35,762 nt of DNA, taken from positions 1 through 35,762 of the forward strand of contig CAMATN010000041.1 in assembly GCA_945861155.1 (NCBI GenBank), given 5' to 3'. The position numbers and the translations under genes are program-made. Positions 4,797 to 31,053 of this stretch are shown here, in pieces. Source of the DNA: Rhizobium sp. Q54. Lineage in GTDB: Bacteria; Pseudomonadota; Alphaproteobacteria; ATCC43930; CGMCC-115725. Position 1 is the first letter of the stretch; the number at the start of each line of letters is the position of its first letter. A model generated the notes under the pieces. That model saw only the letters and a list, made by a program, of their open reading frames with translations, did no database searches and was not told the origin of the DNA.

Positions 4797-5687
4797 ATGA
4801 TTGCCCCCGCCGCCGGGTCGAGCTTCCAGTCGCTGATCCTCGGATTGCAGCGCTTTTGGGCGGATCAGGGCTGCGTGATCTTGCAGCCCTACGACGTCGA
4901 GATCGGCGCCGGCACGTTTCATCCGGCGACGGCGCTGCGCTCGCTCGGACCGAACCCGTGGCGCGCCGCCTATGTCCAGCCCTCGCGACGCCCGACCGAC
5001 GGCCGCTACGGCGAGAACCCGAACCGGCTGCAGCATTATTACCAGCTGCAGGTCATCCTGAAGCCGGCGCCGGCGGACAGTCAGGAGCTCTATCTGCGCA
5101 GCCTCGCCGCGCTCGGCATCGACGCCGCGCGGCACGACATCCGCTTTGTCGAAGATGATTGGGAGAGCCCGACCCTCGGCGCCTCGGGGCTCGGCTGGGA
5201 AGTGTGGCTCGACGGCATGGAGGTCAGCCAGTTCACCTATTTCCAGCAGGTCGGCGGCATCGAGTGCGACCCGGTATCGACCGAATTGACCTATGGGCTC
5301 GAACGCCTGGCGATGTACGTGCAGGGGGTCGAGAGCGTCTACGACCTCGATTTCAACGGCAGGACCGGTCCCGAGCGGATCACCTATGGCGACGTGTTCA
5401 AGCGCGCCGAGCGCGAGTTCTCGGCCTATAATTTTGAGGCCGCCGACACCGGCCGGCTGTTCGCCCATTTCGCCGATGCCGAGGCCGAGTGCCAAGCGCT
5501 GATCGCCCGCGCGATCGCGTTGCCGGCCTATGACCAGTGCCTGAAGGCGAGCCATTTGTTCAATCTGCTCGACGCGCGCGGCGTGATCAGCGTCACCGAG
5601 CGCGCCGCCTATATCGGCCGGGTCCGCGCGCTGGCCCGCGCCTGCTGCGAAGCCTGGCTCGCCGGGACGGACAAGGCACGCCCATGA
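4797..5687 (+). CDS. glyQ: Glycyl-tRNA synthetase alpha subunit
   Basis: The catalytic subunit of the α2β2 bacterial glycyl-tRNA synthetase. It activates glycine with ATP and charges tRNA-Gly in the cytoplasm. At 296 residues it matches the family. The N-terminus reads [20 protein letters not shown], followed by [16 protein letters not shown] and the class II motif region [20 protein letters not shown]. Further conserved blocks are [56 protein letters not shown] and [14 protein letters not shown]. No key residue is obviously missing. It is followed by a gap of about 140 bases that holds a strong inverted repeat, then glyS. Confidence 0.97.
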
Positions 5688-5828: not shown

Positions 5829-8096
5829 GTGGGCGAATTGCTTCTCGAATTGCTGTCGGAGGAAATCCCGGCGCGGATGCAGCGCCGCGCGATCGAGGAT
5901 CTGAGCGCGCTGATCCGCGACAAGCTCGCCGCCGCCGAAATCCCGGCCGCGAATTTGCGCGGCTACGTGACGCCGCGCCGGCTGACGGCGATCGCCGACG
6001 GCATCCCCGAGCGCCAGCCGAACCGCAGCGAGGAGCGTCGCGGCCCCCGGGTCGGCGCCCCGCCGACCGCGCTCGACGGCTTTGTGCGCGCCGCCGGCCT
6101 GGCCTCGATCGAACAATGCGAGGTTCGCGACACCGGTCGCGGCGAATTTTATTTCGCGGTGGTGCAACGGCCGGGCCGCCCCGCCGCCGAGGTGCTGCCC
6201 GAGTTGCTGCACGCCGCGATCACCGAGCTGCCCTGGCCGAAATCGATGCGCTACCCGGCGTCGTCATTGCGCTGGGTGCGACCGCTGGTTTCGGTCATCT
6301 GCCTGTTCGACGGCGCGGTTTTGCCCCTGCCGCTCGCCAAGGGAGATGGGCGCGTTCCGGTCGGCCGGACGACGCGCGGCCACCGTTTTCTATCCACCGA
6401 CGAGATCGCTGTCGCCAACGCCGCCGATTACCTGGAGCGCCTCGAAGCCGCCCACGTAATCCTCGACCATGACCGCCGCCGCGGCCTGATCGCGGCCGAC
6501 CTCGACGAGCGTGCCGCGACCGAGGGGCTCACCGTTAAGCCCGATCCCGGGCTTCTCGACGAGGTGACCGGGCTGGTCGAGTTGCCGGTCGTGCTGATGG
6601 GGGCGATCGACGCCGCCAGCATGGAATTGCCGGCCGAGGTGCTGGCGACCGCGATGCGCACCCACCAGAAATATTTCTCATGCCTGACCGCCGACGGCAC
6701 CCCGGCGCCGCGCTTCCTGTTCGTCGCCAACAACCGGACCCCCGACGACGGCCGGACGATCGTCGCCGGCAACGAACGGGTCCTGCGCGCCCGCCTCGCC
6801 GACGCCCGCTTTTTCTGGGAGCAGGACCGCAAAATTCGGCTCGAAGATCGTGTCGAAGCGCTGAAGGATCGCGTCTATCACGCCAAGCTCGGGAGTGTGC
6901 GCGACAAGGTGCTGCGAATGGAGCACCTGGCGGCTTTTCTCGCGGAGCAGCTGTCGCGGCCTGCGGCCGCGGCCCCCACCCTGCCCTCCCCCGCTAGCGG
7001 GGGAGGGTTTGATAAGGGGAACGCCGCGCCGCACGCAATCCCCTCCCCCGCAAGCGGGGGAGGGTTAGGGTGGGGGCTTGCCGGCGCAGAGTTGGCCCGA
7101 TTGGCGCAACGAGCCGCACACCTGGCGAAAGCCGACCTGTCGACCGGCATGGTCGGCGAGTTTCCCGAATTGCAAGGCGTCATGGGCCGCCATTACGCGC
7201 TCAATGACGGCGAGGACCGAGCCGTCGCCGATGCCATCGCCGACCACTACAAGCCGCAAGGGCCGAACGACACCTGCCCGACTGCGCCGGTGAGCATTAT
7301 TGTCGCGTTAGCCGACAAGATCGATAGCCTCGCTGCGTTTTTCGCGATCGACGAGAGGCCGACCGGCTCGCGCGACCCATTCGCGCTGCGGCGCGCGGCG
7401 CAGGGCGTGATCCGGCTGATATTGGAAAATGAGCTGCGGCTCCCGCTGCGTGGTTGCTTGCAGGGCGCAGTTCAAACCCTAAGGCGAACCGCTGGCTCCC
7501 GTGACGAGCAGCCCCCAGACAATTTGATGCTCGATGAGGCGCTAATCGATTTCATTTTCGATCGACTTCGCGTCCATGTCCGGGAGCAAGGCATTGGTCA
7601 CGACTTGATCGAGGCTGCACGGCGACCAGGTCGGGTCGAAACGGGACCCCAATTCCGCGAAGTCATACACGAGGACGATCTTACCCGTTTCATCAGACGA
7701 GTTCGGGCCTTGCAGGAATTTCTTGAAACCGAGGACGGCGCCAATCTATTGATCGCGTACCGGCGCGCCTCGAATATCGTTGCAATCGAGGAGAGGCGGG
7801 ATAATTGCTCTTATGGCAGAGCGGTTCTTCGAGATCGGCTGCGCCAACCCGAGGAAACCGTGCTTGAGCGCTCTCTTCGTGAGGTGACCCCGCGAGCCGC
7901 TAGCGCTCTCGAAGCAGAGCGGTTTGACGACGCTATGGCCGCGCTGGCCTCCCTGCGAGCGCCGGTTGACGCATTTTTCGACAAGGTGACCGTTAACACC
8001 GACGATCCGGAGCTGCGCGAGAATCGGCTGCGGCTGCTCTCGCGCATCCGCGCGGTGATGAACCAGGTCGCCGATTTTTCCCAAATCGAGGGATGA
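5829..8096 (+). CDS. glyS: Glycyl-tRNA synthetase beta subunit with in-frame repeat insertion
   Basis: The tRNA-binding subunit of α2β2 glycyl-tRNA synthetase. It starts at GTG 5829 with LLLELLSEEIPARMQ, the usual family start, and continues with GYVTPRRL, FLFVANN, GNERVLRARLADARFFWEQD, YHAKLGSVRDKV, then KADLSTGMVGEFPELQGVMG and HYALNDGEDRAVADAI. The C-terminal anticodon-binding part ends at FFDKVTVNTDDPELRENRLR. At 755 residues it is longer than E. coli GlyS (689). About 35 extra codons come from a palindromic element in frame (6973-7076), read as SPASGGGFDKGN and SPASGGGLGWG, just before the KADLSTGMVGEF block. From about 7260 to 7980 the codon use changes sharply to more A/T-ending codons, as if this part came from another source. 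The protein nevertheless looks full length and functional. Confidence 0.95.
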   Translation: MGELLLELLSEEIPARMQRRAIEDLSALIRDKLAAAEIPAANLRGYVTPRRLTAIADGIPERQPNRSEERRGPRVGAPPTALDGFVRAAGLASIEQCEVRDTGRGEFYFAVVQRPGRPAAEVLPELLHAAITELPWPKSMRYPASSLRWVRPLVSVICLFDGAVLPLPLAKGDGRVPVGRTTRGHRFLSTDEIAVANAADYLERLEAAHVILDHDRRRGLIAADLDERAATEGLTVKPDPGLLDEVTGLVELPVVLMGAIDAASMELPAEVLATAMRTHQKYFSCLTADGTPAPRFLFVANNRTPDDGRTIVAGNERVLRARLADARFFWEQDRKIRLEDRVEALKDRVYHAKLGSVRDKVLRMEHLAAFLAEQLSRPAAAAPTLPSPASGGGFDKGNAAPHAIPSPASGGGLGWGLAGAELARLAQRAAHLAKADLSTGMVGEFPELQGVMGRHYALNDGEDRAVADAIADHYKPQGPNDTCPTAPVSIIVALADKIDSLAAFFAIDERPTGSRDPFALRRAAQGVIRLILENELRLPLRGCLQGAVQTLRRTAGSRDEQPPDNLMLDEALIDFIFDRLRVHVREQGIGHDLIEAARRPGRVETGPQFREVIHEDDLTRFIRRVRALQEFLETEDGANLLIAYRRASNIVAIEERRDNCSYGRAVLRDRLRQPEETVLERSLREVTPRAASALEAERFDDAMAALASLRAPVDAFFDKVTVNTDDPELRENRLRLLSRIRAVMNQVADFSQIEG
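6973..7076. repeat. Palindromic element, family C, inside the glyS coding sequence
   Basis: Terminal 10-base inverted repeats (CCCCCACCCT at 6973-6982, AGGGTGGGGG at 7067-7076) enclose two hairpins, CCTCCCCCGCTAGCGGGGGAGG near 6986-7007 being described as CCTCCCCCGC pairing with GCGGGGGAGG, and a like one near 7041-7064. The same family occurs between ppdK and ygfZ. Here it keeps the glyS frame open and adds a low-complexity Pro/Gly/Ser peptide. Confidence 0.85.
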
Positions 8097-8103
8097 ACAG
8101 CCC

Positions 8104-10785
8104 ATGACCAAATGGGTCTACCGCTTTGGCGGGGGGGCGGCGGAGGGGCGGGCCGGGATGAAGGATCTGCTCGGCGGCAAGGGCGCCAATCTGGCCGAGA
8201 TGAGCAATCTGGGGCTGCCGGTGCCGCCCGGCTTTACGATCACGACCGAGCTGTGCACCCATTTTTATGCCAACGGCAATACCTATCCGGCCGAGCTGGA
8301 GGCGCAGGTCGCCGACGCGCTGGCCGCGATCGAAGAGGCCATCGGCGCCCGCTTCGGCGACCCGCAAAAGCCGCTGCTCGTCTCGGTGCGTTCGGGGGCG
8401 CGCGCCTCGATGCCCGGCATGATGGACACCGTCCTCAATCTCGGGCTCAACGACGAGACCGTCGCCGGCCTCGCGCGCCAGAGCGGCGACCAGCGTTTCG
8501 CCTATGACAGCTATCGCCGCTTTTTGCAGATGTACGGTCAGGTCGTGCTCGGCATCGAGCACCATTATTTCGAGGCGCTGATCGAGAACCATAAGATCGA
8601 GACCGGCGCGGTGCTCGACACCGAACTCGGCGCGCAGGATTGGCAGGCGATCGTCGCCGGCTTCAAGGACGTGGTCGCGGCCCACACCGGCAAGCCCTTC
8701 CCGCAGGATATCCACCAGCAGCTATGGGGCGCGATCGCGGCGGTGTTCGGCTCGTGGATGAACACGCGCGCCGTGACCTATCGGCGGCTGCACAACATCC
8801 CCGCCGATTGGGGTACCGCGGTCAGCGTCCAGGCGATGGTGTTCGGCAATAGGGGCGAGGATTGCGCGACCGGCGTCGCCTTTACCCGCAACCCGTCGAC
8901 CGGGGTCAACGAGTTCTACGGCGAATACCTGGTCAACGCGCAGGGCGAGGACGTCGTCGCCGGCATCCGAACCCCGCAGCACCTGACGATCGCCGGCAAA
9001 ATGGCGGGCCATTCGACGCTGCCGGCGATGGAGGAGGTCATGCCCGAAATGTTCGGCGAGCTGCTCCAGGTGAGGCAAATCCTCGAAGACCAGTACCGCG
9101 ACATGCAGGACATCGAGTTCACCGTCGAGCGCGGCAAATTGTGGATGCTGCAGACCCGCACCGGCAAGCGCACCGCACAGGCGGCGCTCAAGATCGCGGT
9201 TGCGCTGGTCGAAGAGGGCCGGATCAGCCGCGAGGAAGCCATTTTACGCATCGCGCCCGATTCGCTCGATCAACTGCTGCACCCGATGCTCGACCCGAGC
9301 GCCAAGACCACGGTACTGGCGCGCGGCCTGCCAGCGTCGCCCGGCGCCGCCTCGGGCAAGGTCGTGTTCTCCGCCGACGAGGCCGAGGCCGCCGCCAGCC
9401 GCGGCGAAAGCGTGATCCTGGTGCGGATCGAGACCAGCCCCGAAGACATCCACGGCATGCACGCCGCAAGGGGCATCCTGACCACGCGCGGCGGCATGAC
9501 GAGCCACGCCGCCGTCGTCGCGCGCGGCATGGGGCGGCCCTGCGTCTCGGGCGCCGGCGATCTGCGCATCGACTATGCCGCCGGCACGCTGACCGTGCGC
9601 AATCACCTCGTGCGGGCCGGCGATCTGATCACGCTCAACGGCTCGACCGGCGAGATCATGGCCGGCGAAGTACCGACGATCCAGCCCAGGCTGTCGGGTG
9701 ATTTCGCGATGCTGATGGGCTGGGCCGACGGGGTGCGCAAGCTCAAGGTCCGCGCCAATGCCGAGACCGCGGTCGACGCCCGCGCGGCGCGCGGCTTCGG
9801 CGCCGAGGGGATCGGGCTGTCGCGCACCGAGCACATGTTTTTCGAGGCCGACCGCATCGGCGCGATGCGCGAGATGATCATGGCCGACGAGGAGCCCGGC
9901 CGCCGCGCCGCGCTCGCCAAGCTGCTGCCGATGCAGCGCGCCGATTTCACCGAAATCTTCCGGATCATGCGCGGCCTGCCGGTGACCATCCGGCTGCTCG
10001 ACCCGCCATTGCACGAATTCCTGCCCAAGACCGAGCCCGAGTTCGAGGAGCTGGCGCGGCTGACCGGCAGAAGCATCGCCGAGGTGCGCCACCGCACCCA
10101 CGCGCTGCACGAAACCAACCCGATGCTCGGCCATCGCGGCTGCCGGCTCGGCATCACCTATCCCGAGATCTACGAGACCCAGGCGGTGGCGATCTTCGAG
10201 GCCGCGGTCGCGGTGATGCGCGAGACCGGCGAGGCGGTCGAGCCCGAAATCATGGTGCCGCTGATCGCGACCCGGCGCGAGTTCGACATCCTGAAGGCGA
10301 TCGTCGACCGGGTCGCCGGCGAGGTCATGACCAGGGAAGGAGTCACGCTGCCTTATCTGGTCGGCACGATGATCGAATTGCCGCGCGCGGCGCTGCTCGC
10401 CGGCCAGATCGCCGAAAGCGCCGAATTCTTCAGCTTCGGCACCAACGATTTGACGCAGACCGTCTACGGCATCTCGCGCGACGATTCGGCGAGCTTTATC
10501 GGGGCCTACCAGAAAGCCGGGATTTTCGAGCACGACCCGTTCGTGACGCTCGACACCGAGGGGGTCGGCGAGATGATAAAGATCGCCACCGAACGCGGCC
10601 GCGCGACCCGGCCCGACATCAAGCTCGGCATCTGCGGCGAGCATGGCGGCGACCCGGCGTCGATCCATTTCTGTCGCCGTATCGGGCTCGATTACGTGTC
10701 GTGCTCGCCCTACCGCGTGCCGATCGCCCGCCTCGCCGCCGCCCAGGCCGAACTGGCCGGCGAATCGGGCGGCGGCACGGCGTAA
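8104..10785 (+). CDS. ppdK: Pyruvate, phosphate dikinase
   Basis: Converts pyruvate, ATP and phosphate to phosphoenolpyruvate, AMP and pyrophosphate, reversibly, linking glycolysis and gluconeogenesis. The 893-residue length fits the bacterial enzyme. Domains in order: the N-terminal nucleotide-binding domain with LLGGKGANLAEMSNLGLPVP and SGARASMPGMMDTVLNLG; the central phosphohistidine domain with ILTTRGGMTSHAAVVARGMG, whose His carries the phosphate; and the C-terminal PEP/pyruvate TIM barrel with EGIGLSRTEHMFF, GHRGCRLGITYPEIYE, FFSFGTNDLTQTVYG and the catalytic cysteine in LGICGEHGGDP. The start is ATG 8104, only 7 bases after the glyS stop, so it is almost certainly co-transcribed with glyS. 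A family C palindromic element begins just after its stop. Confidence 0.97.
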   Translation: MTKWVYRFGGGAAEGRAGMKDLLGGKGANLAEMSNLGLPVPPGFTITTELCTHFYANGNTYPAELEAQVADALAAIEEAIGARFGDPQKPLLVSVRSGARASMPGMMDTVLNLGLNDETVAGLARQSGDQRFAYDSYRRFLQMYGQVVLGIEHHYFEALIENHKIETGAVLDTELGAQDWQAIVAGFKDVVAAHTGKPFPQDIHQQLWGAIAAVFGSWMNTRAVTYRRLHNIPADWGTAVSVQAMVFGNRGEDCATGVAFTRNPSTGVNEFYGEYLVNAQGEDVVAGIRTPQHLTIAGKMAGHSTLPAMEEVMPEMFGELLQVRQILEDQYRDMQDIEFTVERGKLWMLQTRTGKRTAQAALKIAVALVEEGRISREEAILRIAPDSLDQLLHPMLDPSAKTTVLARGLPASPGAASGKVVFSADEAEAAASRGESVILVRIETSPEDIHGMHAARGILTTRGGMTSHAAVVARGMGRPCVSGAGDLRIDYAAGTLTVRNHLVRAGDLITLNGSTGEIMAGEVPTIQPRLSGDFAMLMGWADGVRKLKVRANAETAVDARAARGFGAEGIGLSRTEHMFFEADRIGAMREMIMADEEPGRRAALAKLLPMQRADFTEIFRIMRGLPVTIRLLDPPLHEFLPKTEPEFEELARLTGRSIAEVRHRTHALHETNPMLGHRGCRLGITYPEIYETQAVAIFEAAVAVMRETGEAVEPEIMVPLIATRREFDILKAIVDRVAGEVMTREGVTLPYLVGTMIELPRAALLAGQIAESAEFFSFGTNDLTQTVYGISRDDSASFIGAYQKAGIFEHDPFVTLDTEGVGEMIKIATERGRATRPDIKLGICGEHGGDPASIHFCRRIGLDYVSCSPYRVPIARLAAAQAELAGESGGGTA

Positions 10786-10791
10786 GGTCTG

Positions 10792-10915
10792 CCCCTCACC
10801 CCAGCCCTCTCCCCGCAAGCGGGGAGAGGGAGACAAACGGCGCCACGTGTTTACCCTCGCCCCGCTTGCGGGGAGAGGGAGGGACCCGCGCCGTCAGGCG
10901 CGGGAGGGTGAGGGG
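10792..10915. repeat. Palindromic element, family C, between ppdK and ygfZ
   Basis: Terminal inverted repeats CCCCTCACCC (10792-10801) and GGGTGAGGGG (10906-10915) flank two near-perfect hairpins, CCCTCTCCCCGC with GCGGGGAGAGGG at 10805-10830 and a second one near 10860-10876, plus a short GCGCC-type stem. It is the same design as the element inside glyS. It lies between two convergent genes and contains the ygfZ stop codon (10894-10896), so the last six or seven YgfZ residues (ending SPSPSRA) are repeat-encoded. It may serve as a shared terminator. Confidence 0.85.
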
Positions 10916-11808
10916 CTTTCGGCCTCGATCCGCATCCAATCCGGGCGCAGCGGAACGAGCGTCGCGGCGTCTGCGGATAGAGTGCGGCTTTCCGACACCG
11001 CGTCGAGGCGTAAGAGGGCGATACCGAAGCCTTCATGGCTGGACCGGATCTCGCCGGCGTCGCGCCCCTCCATCATCACGATAGTGCCGGGTGGCGGCGC
11101 CGGGCCGTCGATGCGCACCGGGAACAAGCGCTTCTTGATCAGGCCTCGGTATTTGGTGCGCGCGGTCAGCTCCTGGCCGATATAGCAGCCCTTTTGCCAG
11201 TCGACGCCGTTCAATTCGTCGAAGCCGCTTTCGAGCAGGATCGATTTGTCGATAACCAGGTCGCGGCTGCCGTCGGGGATGCCTAGGGCAAGGCGGTGGC
11301 GGTCATAGTCCGCGAAATCGGCCTCGGCCAGCGGCAACCGGGCCAGCGCCGGAAGCAGCGCCTCGCGCGGCAGGATCATGCGCGCGCCAAGCGCCGCCAG
11401 CCGCGGGTCGACCAGCATCACCCCGCCGTTCCATCCGAGCGCGGCTCCGGGCTCCTCCGGCAGTCCCAGCGCCGACAATGCGCCGTCGCCGAATACCGCG
11501 GCGACCGCGAGATCGGGCCGCTCGGCAAGCTCGACCTTGGCGCGCAGCCGGTAGAGCGACAGCCGGCGCTTCAGATCGGCGAGCCGCGCCGCCTCGGCGT
11601 CGAGCCAGATCGCATCACCCTCCTCGACCATGATGAAATCGTGCAGATATTTGCCCTGCGCGGTCAGCAGCGCCGCGTACACGGCCCGGTTCGGTCCGAC
11701 CTTCTCCACATCGTTCGACACCAGCCCTTGCAAAAAGCCGCGACGGTCGGGCCCCGACACGGCGACGATCCCGCGCTGTTCAAAGAGAACGAAGCTGGCG
11801 TTGAGCAT
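10894..11808 (-). CDS. ygfZ: YgfZ/GcvT-like folate-binding Fe-S cluster assembly protein
   Basis: Member of the YgfZ/IBA57 family, folate-dependent factors that help build or repair iron-sulfur clusters in a subset of enzymes. At 304 residues it fits the family. The diagnostic motif K-G-C-Y-x-G-Q-E is present as WQKGCYIGQELTART (about residues 198-212), and the N-terminus FVLFEQRGIVAVSGPDRRGF, followed by LQGLVSNDV, matches the folate-binding domain. The ATG at 11808 fits the family start; a longer frame to 12027 adds residues unlike the family and overlaps the divergent MFS gene. The last residues are encoded by a palindromic repeat. It converges on ppdK and is divergent from the MFS gene. 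The 100-base gap to that gene must hold both promoters; none is clear by eye. Confidence 0.9.
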   Translation of the reverse strand: MLNASFVLFEQRGIVAVSGPDRRGFLQGLVSNDVEKVGPNRAVYAALLTAQGKYLHDFIMVEEGDAIWLDAEAARLADLKRRLSLYRLRAKVELAERPDLAVAAVFGDGALSALGLPEEPGAALGWNGGVMLVDPRLAALGARMILPREALLPALARLPLAEADFADYDRHRLALGIPDGSRDLVIDKSILLESGFDELNGVDWQKGCYIGQELTARTKYRGLIKKRLFPVRIDGPAPPPGTIVMMEGRDAGEIRSSHEGFGIALLRLDAVSESRTLSADAATLVPLRPDWMRIEAESPSPSRA

Positions 11809-11911
11809 CGGCTGAGACCCCGCAACGGCTGTGACACCCGGCGTTAGGGCGCATATCCTATTTAATGGTTTGCGATGATACGCATTGCGAGGGTTGGAGC
11901 AGCAACCACCG

Positions 11912-13084
11912 ATGACGAGCGATACCGGCGTCCGGGCCGTGCCGATGCCCGGCGTACCGCCGGAAGCCGCCGATCGGGCCTCGCGCCATGCCTCGCTGAC
12001 GCTGGGGCTGACGCTGCCCGGCGACACGGTGCTCTATCTGCTGCTGCCGCTTTACGCCGACGGCTTTGGCGTGACCTTGCCGGAAGCGGGACTGCTGCTC
12101 GCCGCCAATCGGCTGGTGCGGATCGCCGGGTATGGCTGGGTCGCGCGCGGCTACGAGCGGTTTGGGCCGCGCGCCGCCTGTGTCGCGGCGACATTGGGCG
12201 CGACCGGGGCGACGTTGGGCTACGCGGTCTTGTCCGGGGTCGGGCTGCTGCTGCTGACCCGCCTGATGTGGGGCTTGTCCTTCGCCGCGCTCAACATCGC
12301 GACGCAGGCTCAGGCGACCAGCGAAGCGCACCGCGCCTCGTCGCGCAGTGGACGGTCGCGGGCGATCATCGCGGCGGGACCGATGCTCGGCCTCCTTGGC
12401 GCGGCGGCGCTGACCGAGACCGTGGGCCCGCGCGCGGTGTTCCTGGCGCTGGCCTGCGTCGCCGTATTGGCGCTCCCCTTCGCGGCCCGGCTGCCGGGCG
12501 GGCCTGGGCAGAGATTGCGCGTCGGGGGGCGCCGGCTCCGCCCGCCGTCGCCGCTCGATCTGTGGTCCTTCATCCAGGGCCTGACGCTCGACGGCATATT
12601 CGTGATCGGCCTGGCGGTGCTGGCGAGCGCCGCGTCGCCCGACAGCGCCGTTGTGGCCGCCGGTTGCGCGCTCGCGCTGCGCTACGTCGCGGAAATCGCG
12701 CTCGGCCCGGTGAGCGGCGCCATCGCCGAGCGCTGCGGCGCGGCGCGCTCGCTGATCGTGCTGTCCTTGGCGTCGGCCGTCGCCTATGCCGCTATCAGCA
12801 TCGGGATCTTGTGGGCCGGCGTCATCGCCGTCCTGTTGCTGCGCGGCATGCTGGCGCCCCTCGCCGCGCCCGTTGCCGCCCTCGCCAACCCCGGCGGGCA
12901 GCGTGTGCCGGCGATCGCGCGCATGGCCACCTGGCGCGATCTCGGCGCGGGGATCGGGCCGCTATTGGCCGGGTTATTGCTGCCGATTGCGCCATTCGGG
13001 CTTTATGCCGCCGCCGCCGCCGCGCTCGCGGCCGCGACGCTCGCGCTCGCCATCTTGGATTTGGGCGCATGGCGGCGTCGCTGA
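11912..13084 (+). CDS. MFS-type transporter
   Basis: A hydrophobic 390-residue protein with about twelve predicted membrane spans, such as AGLLLAANRLVRIAGYGWV, GYAVLSGVGLLLLTRLMWGL and IGILWAGVIAVLLLRGMLAP. The overall 6+6 layout, with a basic loop (PGQRLRVGGRRLRPP) near residue 205, indicates a major facilitator. The substrate cannot be told. The ATG at 11912 is chosen over a TTG at 11885, because the residues before it are not membrane-like. It overlaps the next gene, a lipid A-type acyltransferase, by 16 bases, so the two are probably co-expressed and the transporter may act in envelope glycolipid or small-molecule export. That is inference from context. Confidence 0.8.
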   Translation: MTSDTGVRAVPMPGVPPEAADRASRHASLTLGLTLPGDTVLYLLLPLYADGFGVTLPEAGLLLAANRLVRIAGYGWVARGYERFGPRAACVAATLGATGATLGYAVLSGVGLLLLTRLMWGLSFAALNIATQAQATSEAHRASSRSGRSRAIIAAGPMLGLLGAAALTETVGPRAVFLALACVAVLALPFAARLPGGPGQRLRVGGRRLRPPSPLDLWSFIQGLTLDGIFVIGLAVLASAASPDSAVVAAGCALALRYVAEIALGPVSGAIAERCGAARSLIVLSLASAVAYAAISIGILWAGVIAVLLLRGMLAPLAAPVAALANPGGQRVPAIARMATWRDLGAGIGPLLAGLLLPIAPFGLYAAAAAALAAATLALAILDLGAWRRR

Positions 13085-14007
13085 AAGCCGGGAGCGGAGC
13101 TGCCCGGGTGGAGTGGCGGCATCGCGTCGAGGCTTGGGGCGCCGCGGTCCTGTTCGGCGTTCTCGGCGCCGTGCCGCTCGACGTCGCCTCCGGCGTCGGC
13201 GGCTGGCTCGGACGCCGGATCGGCCCCCGTCTCGGGATATCCAAGCGGGCGCGCCACCACATCGGCGCCGCGCTACCGGACTTGTCGGCGAGCGAGATCG
13301 AGGCGGTGCTGCGGGGGATGTGGGACAATCTCGGCCGCGTCGCCGCTGAGTATCCGCACCTGCGCCGGATCCGAATCCTCGCATCCGTCGGCGGCGTGGA
13401 GACCGGCCGCGTGGAGACCAATCGGGTCGAAATCCGCGGCCTGGAGCATGTCGAGCGGGCGATTGCCGCGGGCCGGCGGCTCATCCTCTTTTCCGCCCAT
13501 CTGGCGAATTGGGAAATCGCCGCGCTCGCCGCCGCCCAATACGGCGCGGACATCGCCCAGATCTACCGCTCCGCGAACAATCCGCTGATCGACCGGATGA
13601 TTCTGCGGTTCCGCGGAGCAGAGGGGGAGTTCATCCCGAAGGAGGCGGTCGGACGCCGTGCGATAGCGGCGTTGCGGCGCGGCGCGCTTCTGACGATCCT
13701 CATTGACCAGAAGCTCAATGAGGGGATCGCGGTCCCGTTTTTCGGCCGGCCGGCGATGACCGCGCCGACGCTGGCGCTGCTCGCGCTGCGGTTCGATTGC
13801 GACGTTTTACCGGCGCGGGTCGAGCGGCTTCAGGGCGCGCGCTTCCGCCTCACCCTCTATCCGCCGCTGCCCTCGCCCGATACCGGCAGAAGGGGCGGCG
13901 ACGTCGCGGCCTTGATGCTCGACGTCAACGCCACTCTCGAAGGCTGGATTCGCGAGCGGCCCGAACAATGGTTCTGGTTGCATCGCCGCTGGCTCGACGA
14001 GACATAA
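13069..14007 (+). CDS. Lipid A biosynthesis acyltransferase (LpxL/HtrB family)
   Basis: A 312-residue member of the late lipid A acyltransferase family, which moves a fatty acyl chain from acyl-ACP to Kdo-lipid A or a similar glycolipid at the inner membrane. Seen: an N-terminal hydrophobic stretch (AAVLFGVLGAVPLDVASGVG), the catalytic HX4E box in FSAHLANWEIAALAA (about residues 143-157), a following QIYRSANNPLIDRMI block, and LTILIDQKLNEGIAVPFFGR with PAMTAPTLALLALR. The C-terminal REEP-type end is RPEQWFWLHRRW. The start ATG 13069 lies inside the end of the MFS gene (16-base overlap). A longer open frame upstream in the same phase is only an artefact of the GC-rich MFS gene. It heads a string of sugar-transfer genes, consistent with lipopolysaccharide assembly. 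Confidence 0.9.
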   Translation: MAASLKAGSGAARVEWRHRVEAWGAAVLFGVLGAVPLDVASGVGGWLGRRIGPRLGISKRARHHIGAALPDLSASEIEAVLRGMWDNLGRVAAEYPHLRRIRILASVGGVETGRVETNRVEIRGLEHVERAIAAGRRLILFSAHLANWEIAALAAAQYGADIAQIYRSANNPLIDRMILRFRGAEGEFIPKEAVGRRAIAALRRGALLTILIDQKLNEGIAVPFFGRPAMTAPTLALLALRFDCDVLPARVERLQGARFRLTLYPPLPSPDTGRRGGDVAALMLDVNATLEGWIRERPEQWFWLHRRWLDET

Positions 14008-29256: not shown

Positions 29257-30078
29257 ATGAAGATCGTCGACGCGCAGATTCACCTGTGGCACCAGGGCCT
29301 GCCGACCAACCCGGCCCACCGTCAGATCACGTCGTGGTCGGCCGAAGATTGCCTGAAGGAAATGGATGCGGGCGGGGTCGACGCGGCGCTGATCCATCCG
29401 CCCGGCTGGGACCCCAATTCGGGTGCGATCGCCGAGGCGGCGGCAACGAAATATCCGGACCGCTTCGCGATCCTCGGCAATTTCCCTCCCGAAAAGCCGG
29501 AGAGCCGTGACCTCATTGCGGGATGGAAGAACCGGCCGGGGATGCTCGGTCTGCGCTGGGCCTTTACGCAGCCGCATCAGCAGAGCTGGATGACCGACGG
29601 CACGATGGATTGGATCTGGCCGGCGTGCGAGAAGGCGGGCATCCCGATCGCGCTGATGGCGTCGAATTTCCTGCCGCAGGTGCAGGGCGTCGCCGAGCGT
29701 CACCCGGGCCTCAAGCTGATAATCGACCATTTCGGCCGGGCCCGCGGCGGGCAGGACGATGCGGCGTTCTCCAATATCGCGGAGGTTGCCGCCCTCGCCA
29801 AATTCCCCAATGTCGCGCTGAAGGCGACCGGCGGGGCAGGCGAGTCGAGCCAGCCCTATCCCTACGGCAACATCCATAAACACGTCCGGCAGCTCTACGA
29901 CGCCTATGGCCCGAACCGGTTTTTCTGGGGCACCGACATCACCCGGATGCCGGCCTCGTGGAAACAATGCGTGACGATGTTCACCGAGGAATTGCCCTGG
30001 CTCAAGGGCAACGACCTCGAACTCGTCATGGGCCGCGGCCTGTGCAATTGGCTCGGGTGGAAATTGCCGGGAGTGTAA
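29257..30078 (+). CDS. Amidohydrolase family 2 protein, paralogue 1
   Basis: A 273-residue TIM-barrel metal hydrolase or decarboxylase of the amidohydrolase-2 (ACMSD-like) superfamily. The N-terminal metal site reads VDAQIHLW; the usual HxH pair is QxH. Further probable ligands are in KLIIDHFGRA (His) and FFWGTDITRMPASWKQCVTM (Asp near the barrel end). Members open lactones or decarboxylate aromatic acids; the substrate here is unknown. ATG 29257 has GGGAG 7 bases upstream. The next gene is a close relative, in tandem, with FTQPHQQSWMTDGTMDW shared almost exactly. The CMD-like gene upstream may act in the same pathway. Confidence 0.85.
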   Translation: MKIVDAQIHLWHQGLPTNPAHRQITSWSAEDCLKEMDAGGVDAALIHPPGWDPNSGAIAEAAATKYPDRFAILGNFPPEKPESRDLIAGWKNRPGMLGLRWAFTQPHQQSWMTDGTMDWIWPACEKAGIPIALMASNFLPQVQGVAERHPGLKLIIDHFGRARGGQDDAAFSNIAEVAALAKFPNVALKATGGAGESSQPYPYGNIHKHVRQLYDAYGPNRFFWGTDITRMPASWKQCVTMFTEELPWLKGNDLELVMGRGLCNWLGWKLPGV

Positions 30079-30091
30079 AGTCTCATTGTCG

Positions 30092-30208
30092 TCCCGGCGA
30101 AAGCCGGGACCCACGGTTGAGCCGGCCAAGACCATGGCGCCTCGGCAAAACGCCGGCGCTGCCGAGGATCGAGACCCGCACATCGGTGGATCCCGGCTTT
30201 CGCCGGGA
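30092..30208. repeat. Palindromic element, family F, long copy
   Basis: TCCCGGCGAAAGCCGGGA (30092-30109) and its exact complement TCCCGGCTTTCGCCGGGA (30191-30208), each also a hairpin, are 81 bases apart. This places a repeat in the gap between the two amidohydrolase paralogues. The stretch between the arms is not conserved in the short copy at 23372-23432. Confidence 0.85.
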
Positions 30209-30240
30209 TGACACGGGAGATTGAGGGAGGGGACACCGCG

Positions 30241-31053
30241 ATGCTGATCGTCGATGCGCAGGTTCATATCTGGTCGAGCGGGATGCCGTCGGGCCAGCAC
30301 CGGCAGGTGTCGTCGTTTTCGGCCGAGGAATGCCTTCAGGAAATGGCGGCGGCCGGGGTCGATGCGGTGGTGCTGCATCCGCCGGGCTGGGATGTAAACG
30401 GCGTCGACGTCGCGGTCGCGGCGGCGACGAAATATCCGGACAATTTCGCGATCCTCGGCCATTTCCCGCTCGACAAGCCGGAAACCCGCGGGCTGATCGA
30501 CAATTGGAAGAGCCGGCCGGGCATGCTTGGGCTGCGCTATGCCTTCACCCAGCCGCACCAGCAAAACTGGATGACCGACGGCACGATGGACTGGCTGTGG
30601 CCGGCCGCCGAGCGCGCCGGGGTCCCCATCGCGCTGATGGCGTCGAACTACCTGCCGCAGGTCGCGCAGATCGCCGAGCGCCATCCTGGCCTGAGGCTGT
30701 TGATCGACCATTATGCAAGGGCGCGCGACGCCAGCGACGATGCGGCGCACGCCAACCAGCCGGCCTTGCTGGCGCTCGCCAGATTCCCAAACGTCGCGGT
30801 CAAGGCGACCGGCGCGCCGGGCAATTCGAGCGCGCCCTACCCCTATCGCAACATCCACAAATACACCGAGCAGATCTTCGACGCGTTCGGGCCCACCCGG
30901 ACATTCTGGGGCACCGATATCACCCGCATGCCGTGCTCGTGGAAGCAATGCGTGACGATGTTCACCCAGGAGATGCCGTTCCTCAAGGGACGCGACCTCG
31001 AACAGGTCATGGGCCGGGCGGTGTGCGCCTGGATCGGCTGGAAACTGCCGTAG
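30241..31053 (+). CDS. Amidohydrolase family 2 protein, paralogue 2
   Basis: A 270-residue paralogue of the gene before it, with the same order of blocks: IVDAQVHIWSSGMPSGQHRQ, GVDAVVLHPPGWDVNG, AILGHFPLDKPETRGLIDNW, AFTQPHQQNWMTDGTMDWLW and FWGTDITRMPCSWKQCVTMF. The first histidine of the metal HxH is again glutamine (DAQVH), so this is a feature of the subfamily, not a chance mutation. LLIDHYARARDASDDAAHAN marks the second metal-binding region, with a slightly different loop from paralogue 1. The ATG at 30241 has GGGAGGGG about 9 bases upstream. A tandem duplication gave two enzymes, perhaps with different substrates. Confidence 0.85.
   Translation: MLIVDAQVHIWSSGMPSGQHRQVSSFSAEECLQEMAAAGVDAVVLHPPGWDVNGVDVAVAAATKYPDNFAILGHFPLDKPETRGLIDNWKSRPGMLGLRYAFTQPHQQNWMTDGTMDWLWPAAERAGVPIALMASNYLPQVAQIAERHPGLRLLIDHYARARDASDDAAHANQPALLALARFPNVAVKATGAPGNSSAPYPYRNIHKYTEQIFDAFGPTRTFWGTDITRMPCSWKQCVTMFTQEMPFLKGRDLEQVMGRAVCAWIGWKLP

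Follow-up and report, generated by a model that had tools for sequence, protein, structure and literature searches.

A dispersed palindromic repeat in frame within glyS, at a GlyRS loop occupied by different repeat families in Alphaproteobacteria

Introduction

How does a dispersed palindromic repeat come to lie inside the coding sequence of a tRNA synthetase, and what does its presence mean for the enzyme? The question is raised by the window, the whole stretch of 35,762 nucleotides analyzed here, which belongs to a 4.88-Mb alphaproteobacterial draft genome (226 contigs, about 97% complete) from a soil bacterium. Its glyS gene (5829 to 8093, plus strand) encodes a glycyl-tRNA synthetase beta subunit (GlyRS beta) of 755 residues, part of an essential tRNA-charging enzyme. 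The protein matches PF02092 over its full length (E = 6e-181), retains the conserved residues, and also has a DALR match. Upstream lies glyQ, encoding the alpha subunit (4797 to 5687, plus strand; PF02091, E = 9e-145), and downstream a pyruvate phosphate dikinase (PPDK) gene (8104 to 10785). A profile of the HD segment matched the genome at this site alone, with the insert dividing the match, making this the sole glyS copy found.

Two other features of the window are recorded for their own sake. Neighboring PF04909 amidohydrolase genes (29257 to 30078 and 30208 to 31053), 981 bp apart with about 79% DNA identity, are to judge by sequence a local tandem duplication. An open reading frame at 11875 to 14007 (710 residues) has a lipid A acyltransferase domain at residues 419 to 707, and its 400-residue N-terminal part has no Pfam match.

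Results

The repeat occupies positions 6973 to 7076, as the first-pass annotation had it, and is a 104-bp bipartite element in which two 24-nt palindromes (CCCTCCCCCGCNNGCGGGGGAGGG) are enclosed by inverted ends (CCCCCACCC...GGGTGGGGG). It comprises a left end (CCCCCACCCTG, 6973 to 6983), a left palindrome (CCCTCCCCCGCTAGCGGGGGAGGG, 6984 to 7007), a spacer (7008 to 7040) encoding FDKGNAAPHAI, a right palindrome (CCCTCCCCCGCAAGCGGGGGAGGG, 7041 to 7064), and a right end (TTAGGGTGGGGG, 7065 to 7076). Both palindromes read PSPASGGG here, and the spacer is variable, with the distance between palindromes differing among copies. Copies align with sharp ends, and because conservation of their outer flank stops after about 12 bp (TT[AG]GGGTGGGGG) and gives way to random sequence, the ends are well defined. 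The strand of the element folds at -99 kcal/mol (z = -8.6).

Across the insert the glyS frame continues uninterrupted, and residues 382 to 416 (..PTLPSPASGGGFDKGNAAPHAIPSPASGGGLGWG; codons 6972 to 7076) contain no stop. The palindrome itself lacks a stop in all three frames, which read PSPASGGG, NPPPxAGEG, and TLPRxRGRE, each found in real genes. From YHAKLGS to KADLSTGMVGEF, both anchors counted, the linker spans 96 residues in the window GlyS versus 52 to 55 in most relatives. The proposal that the repeat adds about 35 residues in frame holds for the open reading frame and for residues 382 to 416, but not for the arithmetic of the event: about 8 of the 43 extra linker residues fall outside the element, and as the strict length of 104 bp is not divisible by 3, at least one junction base must have been gained or lost. 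A clean one-step in-frame insertion is therefore not demonstrated by the length of the element. Because the frame is open and glyS is present in a single copy, the repeat probably does persist in the GlyRS protein, as had been suggested.

AlphaFold2 modeling with the window GlyS and 42 relatives gave a mean pLDDT of 89.9 and placed the insert as a disordered loop (pLDDT 38 to 52) between two HD-domain helices, one formed by residues 357 to 376 (6897 to 6956, plus strand) and the other by residues 419 to 432 (7083 to 7124, plus strand), the latter starting with the motif ELARLAQ. The loop of Sphingobium lactosutens GlyS, which carries another repeat family, is likewise predicted to be disordered. 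The best solved matches to the window model are GlyRS beta structures, including the Escherichia coli tRNA complex 7yse, in which the loop corresponds to about residues 381 to 385. As the HD-domain contacts to tRNA in E. coli involve residues 439, 473 to 476, 481 to 482, and 531 (PMC9908026), the loop lies apart from the tRNA-contacting residues.

The repetitive nature of the element is evident throughout its own genome, where a search for the 24-mer allowing up to 3 mismatches gave 189 hits, compared to 1 for a reversed control pattern, and BLAST with the whole element returns dozens of copies. In 1.15 Mb of this genome, taken from stretches partly picked for carrying elements and so unsuited to estimating rates for the whole genome, we counted 141 palindromes with at most 5 mismatches; they form 77 clusters, 47 of which hold paired palindromes, mostly 45 to 53 bp from start to start. 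The intergenic repeat after the PPDK gene (10793 to 10916), first described as being of the same kind, is related but not identical; it is a composite variant that joins CCCTCTCCCCGC arms to another palindrome. A target site duplication would show as an excess of matching flanks at lengths of 2 to 10 bp, and no such excess was seen in 63 matches, a set that includes single palindromes. A PF01797 search of the genome, about 97% complete, found no RAYT-type Y1 transposase, so RAYT was rejected as the mobilizer here, and across 15 genomes the presence of Y1_Tnp does not follow the presence of inserts. The missing transposase and target site duplication weaken the case for movement, and the element is best described as a dispersed, non-autonomous, putatively mobile REP/MITE-like palindromic dimer.

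In-frame copies of the window's element were also found in some twelve further genes of the same genome, all conserved and Pfam supported: mfd, uvrC, lhr, ligD, cobW, COX15/CtaA, an amidase-containing open reading frame, an APH-type kinase gene, a radical-SAM (UPF0004) gene, a dienelactone hydrolase-like gene, an aldolase/dehydrogenase fusion, and a CofGH-like gene. Two further candidates (L076 and L086) without a Pfam match were dropped, and in a call at ileS/lspA the element sits at the gene junction. At that locus (L073, 2232 to 5699) a single open frame runs from isoleucyl-tRNA synthetase into signal peptidase II. The interhelical loop of COX15 (heme A synthase) holds the window's element in its own genome and a different repeat-like sequence in a congener (G004), is partly lengthened in G003, and is empty in G002 and G005 (loci L305 to L310). 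Occupation of this loop by different repeats in congeners suggests that repeats land again and again in permissive loops of conserved proteins.

Comparison with close relatives gave the same picture for GlyS. Four members of the genus (G002, G003, G004, and G006) have a glyS loop that is ordinary or slightly longer and lacks the window's element, and all four carry that element elsewhere in the genome. In two other congeners (G001 and G007) and one further member of the family (G037), the GlyS loop is occupied by palindromes of another family, the VTPAEAGVQ...RGND type, and four genomes of the window's family hold long inserts there. The linker of G007 (L004) contains a palindrome, CCCGGGCTTGATCCGGGGATCA, apparently nested inside VSPAKAG...RGND.

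The normal length of the loop is about 5 residues, and among 80 named GlyS loci the anchor-to-anchor linker measures 52 to 55 residues in Azospirillum, Dongia, Niveispirillum, and similar genera and 82 to 104 in Rhizorhapis, Sphingobium, Sphingopyxis, and Novosphingobium. A class-wide search showed no insert among its best 150 matches, and the survey proper covers the window's family and the Sphingomonadaceae. Within the latter, about 58 of 142 members with a match (approximately 40%, as read from match spans) have inserts of at least 15 residues. The 40 insert loci inspected all keep the reading frame, and palindromes of various dispersed repeats are present in nearly every one, with L207 and L215 having no assigned palindrome type. 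In all, 51 Sphingomonadaceae rows are counted as holding palindromes other than the window's at this loop. At least six unrelated palindromic families occupy the loop. The types comprise PAKAG...RGND (CGTC-type REPs), PGESRDP...GVRRGD, PELVEG...STSSAR, SSEVETR...SLGTNG, SSPxxGGGP...PPPxxGE, LPGGEGPGVG/LRGEG...PSRE, and TPDLIRGPA...RVKPGVT. The CGTC tag is present in the insert of L121, which reads CGTCACCCCCGCGG...CGCGGGAATGACG, and was seen by eye in several others, uncounted. Four such inserts, searched in eight genomes, are repetitive there. Alignment of 14 congeneric pairs revealed both filled and empty loops, and species of one genus often differ.

GlyS has a second in-frame repeat site in its C-terminal part, after the AYRRAANI helix (L014/L281 from G054, L191, and L199), occupied by at least two families. 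Sphingobium lactosutens GlyS has its second repeat insert here, at residues 667 to 691, and the second GlyS insert of G054 lies in the same region.

Discussion

We hold with good confidence that the glyS insert is one copy of the dispersed REP/MITE-like dimer, which entered the gene in this lineage and was tolerated there as a near-neutral change. The element would have spread through a transposase or a replication-linked process, and its insertion would be tolerated because the palindrome is free of stops in three frames and would encode a flexible loop of Pro, Gly, Ser, and Ala. At a landing point between two HD helices, the chain could bulge into solvent and leave the tRNA-contacting loop undisturbed, and the net effect on the enzyme is likely to be close to neutral. 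Permissive loops of this kind would act as repeated landing sites, where unrelated families would have come and gone many times in the Sphingomonadaceae and in the window's family, and the neighboring helix would tend toward a different start, with ELxxLA replacing an ADP-type cap.

That altered helix start is also the argument for a different history, in which a single ancestral long-linker allele, the product of one or a few lengthenings, was followed by palindrome replacement, deletion, and recombination of glyS alleles between lineages rather than by repeated fresh insertion. Of 55 long linkers, 51 have the seam ELxxLA[EDQ] after the loop (48 of the 51 from Sphingomonadaceae and 3 of the 4 other filled rows), versus none of 46 short ones, and an ADP-type cap opens the helix in empty forms. 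A long loop may go together with an extension of the helix, or long-linker alleles may be of common ancestry; for the Sphingomonadaceae, the common seam could mean the latter and so count against repeated fresh insertion. However, the window's family has this seam too, and there filled rows are mixed among empty close kin (L003 with L008 and L004 with L010). A GlyS tree also interleaves filled and empty rows. Loop state requires no fewer than 24 changes on it, and starred (strongly supported) branches force 11 or more of these; the tree was built by a quick method with the linker left out, and 39 of its 98 inner branches are weakly supported. Moreover, the congeneric G566 and G504 have the rare flank DLTTGMVGEF in common across filled and empty states. 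A single ancestral allele is conceivable, but we consider it doubtful.

Another possibility is that the loop is a favored or selected target, and that the insert is useful, for example as an mRNA hairpin or long loop that tunes GlyRS, and is kept and renewed. Some 40% of Sphingomonadaceae are filled at this one loop, whereas all genes in a 0.8-Mb sample of G054 together have just a few in-frame inserts, and the helix beside the loop looks coadapted. Against such a role, many close relatives do without the insert, the inserts are unrelated in family, sequence, and length, models predict a disordered loop, and both the COX15 loop and the second GlyS site behave alike. We judge selection of this kind to be improbable. 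We would give similarly little credence to the bolder proposal that the HD loop is a true docking site in Alphaproteobacteria, where mobile palindromes of unrelated kinds enter again and again by a route favoring the site, with the long loop or its mRNA hairpin put to use by the cell and the helix readapted each time. An assembly or binning artifact, or a glyS pseudogene, hardly deserves consideration: a draft in 226 contigs may misassemble at repeats, but the 755-residue frame is open and single copy with its conserved residues retained, and like arrangements with other repeats occur in one-contig genomes such as G054.

Tolerated insertion of a dispersed dimer, the reading we prefer, places the window's glyS among many natural replicates, as filled and empty loops within a genus allow inserts to be judged as neutral, costly, or used. 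Because unrelated families meet at one loop of an essential enzyme in two alphaproteobacterial groups, GlyS also offers a chance to catch the moving agent of REPs without RAYT. For annotation there is a warning: PAKAG, PELVEG, SPASGGG, and RGND peptides in annotated proteins are repeat derived.

In-frame palindromes were presented first as a specialty of Rickettsia, whose palindromic elements (RPE) reportedly go back to Ogata et al. in 2000 and 2002, and later as scattered REP cases. RPEs remain the classic example (reviewed in PMC10969869 and PMC2229807) and, like the window's element, are dispersed palindromes, of about 100 to 150 bp, that lie in frame in conserved genes and are predicted to be compatible with structure. 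The consensus differs as far as is known, the two being set apart by description rather than by sequence comparison, and the window's case differs in its free-living, GC-rich host group and in one loop common to several families. The first-pass annotation was right to name RPEs as the well-known case, but intragenic REPs are also described elsewhere, tRNA synthetase genes included. In the text of Di Nocera et al. (2013; PMC3733652), GTAG and CGTC REPs lie within genes of many species, often repair genes; they are found inside tRNA synthetase genes of Erythrobacter litoralis and Sphingopyxis alaskensis, and in two Xanthomonas, recB holds different REPs at roughly one position. The synthetase may itself be GlyS, and the main text of that paper, its gene table aside, does not present the GlyS loop as a site of many families. 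These REP dimers resemble the window's element in their in-frame position within genes for repair and RNA-binding proteins, tRNA synthetases among them, and CGTC REPs are described there as having no dedicated transposase. The window's element differs in that neither tag is present on either side, the outer flank consensus being TTGGGGTGGGGG.

REPINs and RAYT-mobilized REPs share with the element two inverted REP-like palindromes and a spacer, a size of about 100 bp, and no target site duplication, but the window's genome differs in its lack of a detectable RAYT. Bacterial MITEs (Correia/NEMIS, ERIC, and QMITE) have in common with it terminal inverted repeats, a non-autonomous nature, and occasional in-frame fusions; unlike them, it has no target site duplication and no identified parent IS. 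Our literature search, which mostly covered papers outside subscription, found no report of glyS inserts in sphingomonads. An in-frame repeat in a tRNA synthetase gene is already a known phenomenon; the window's repeat family is new, and so, as far as we have found, is a single loop filled by many unrelated families.
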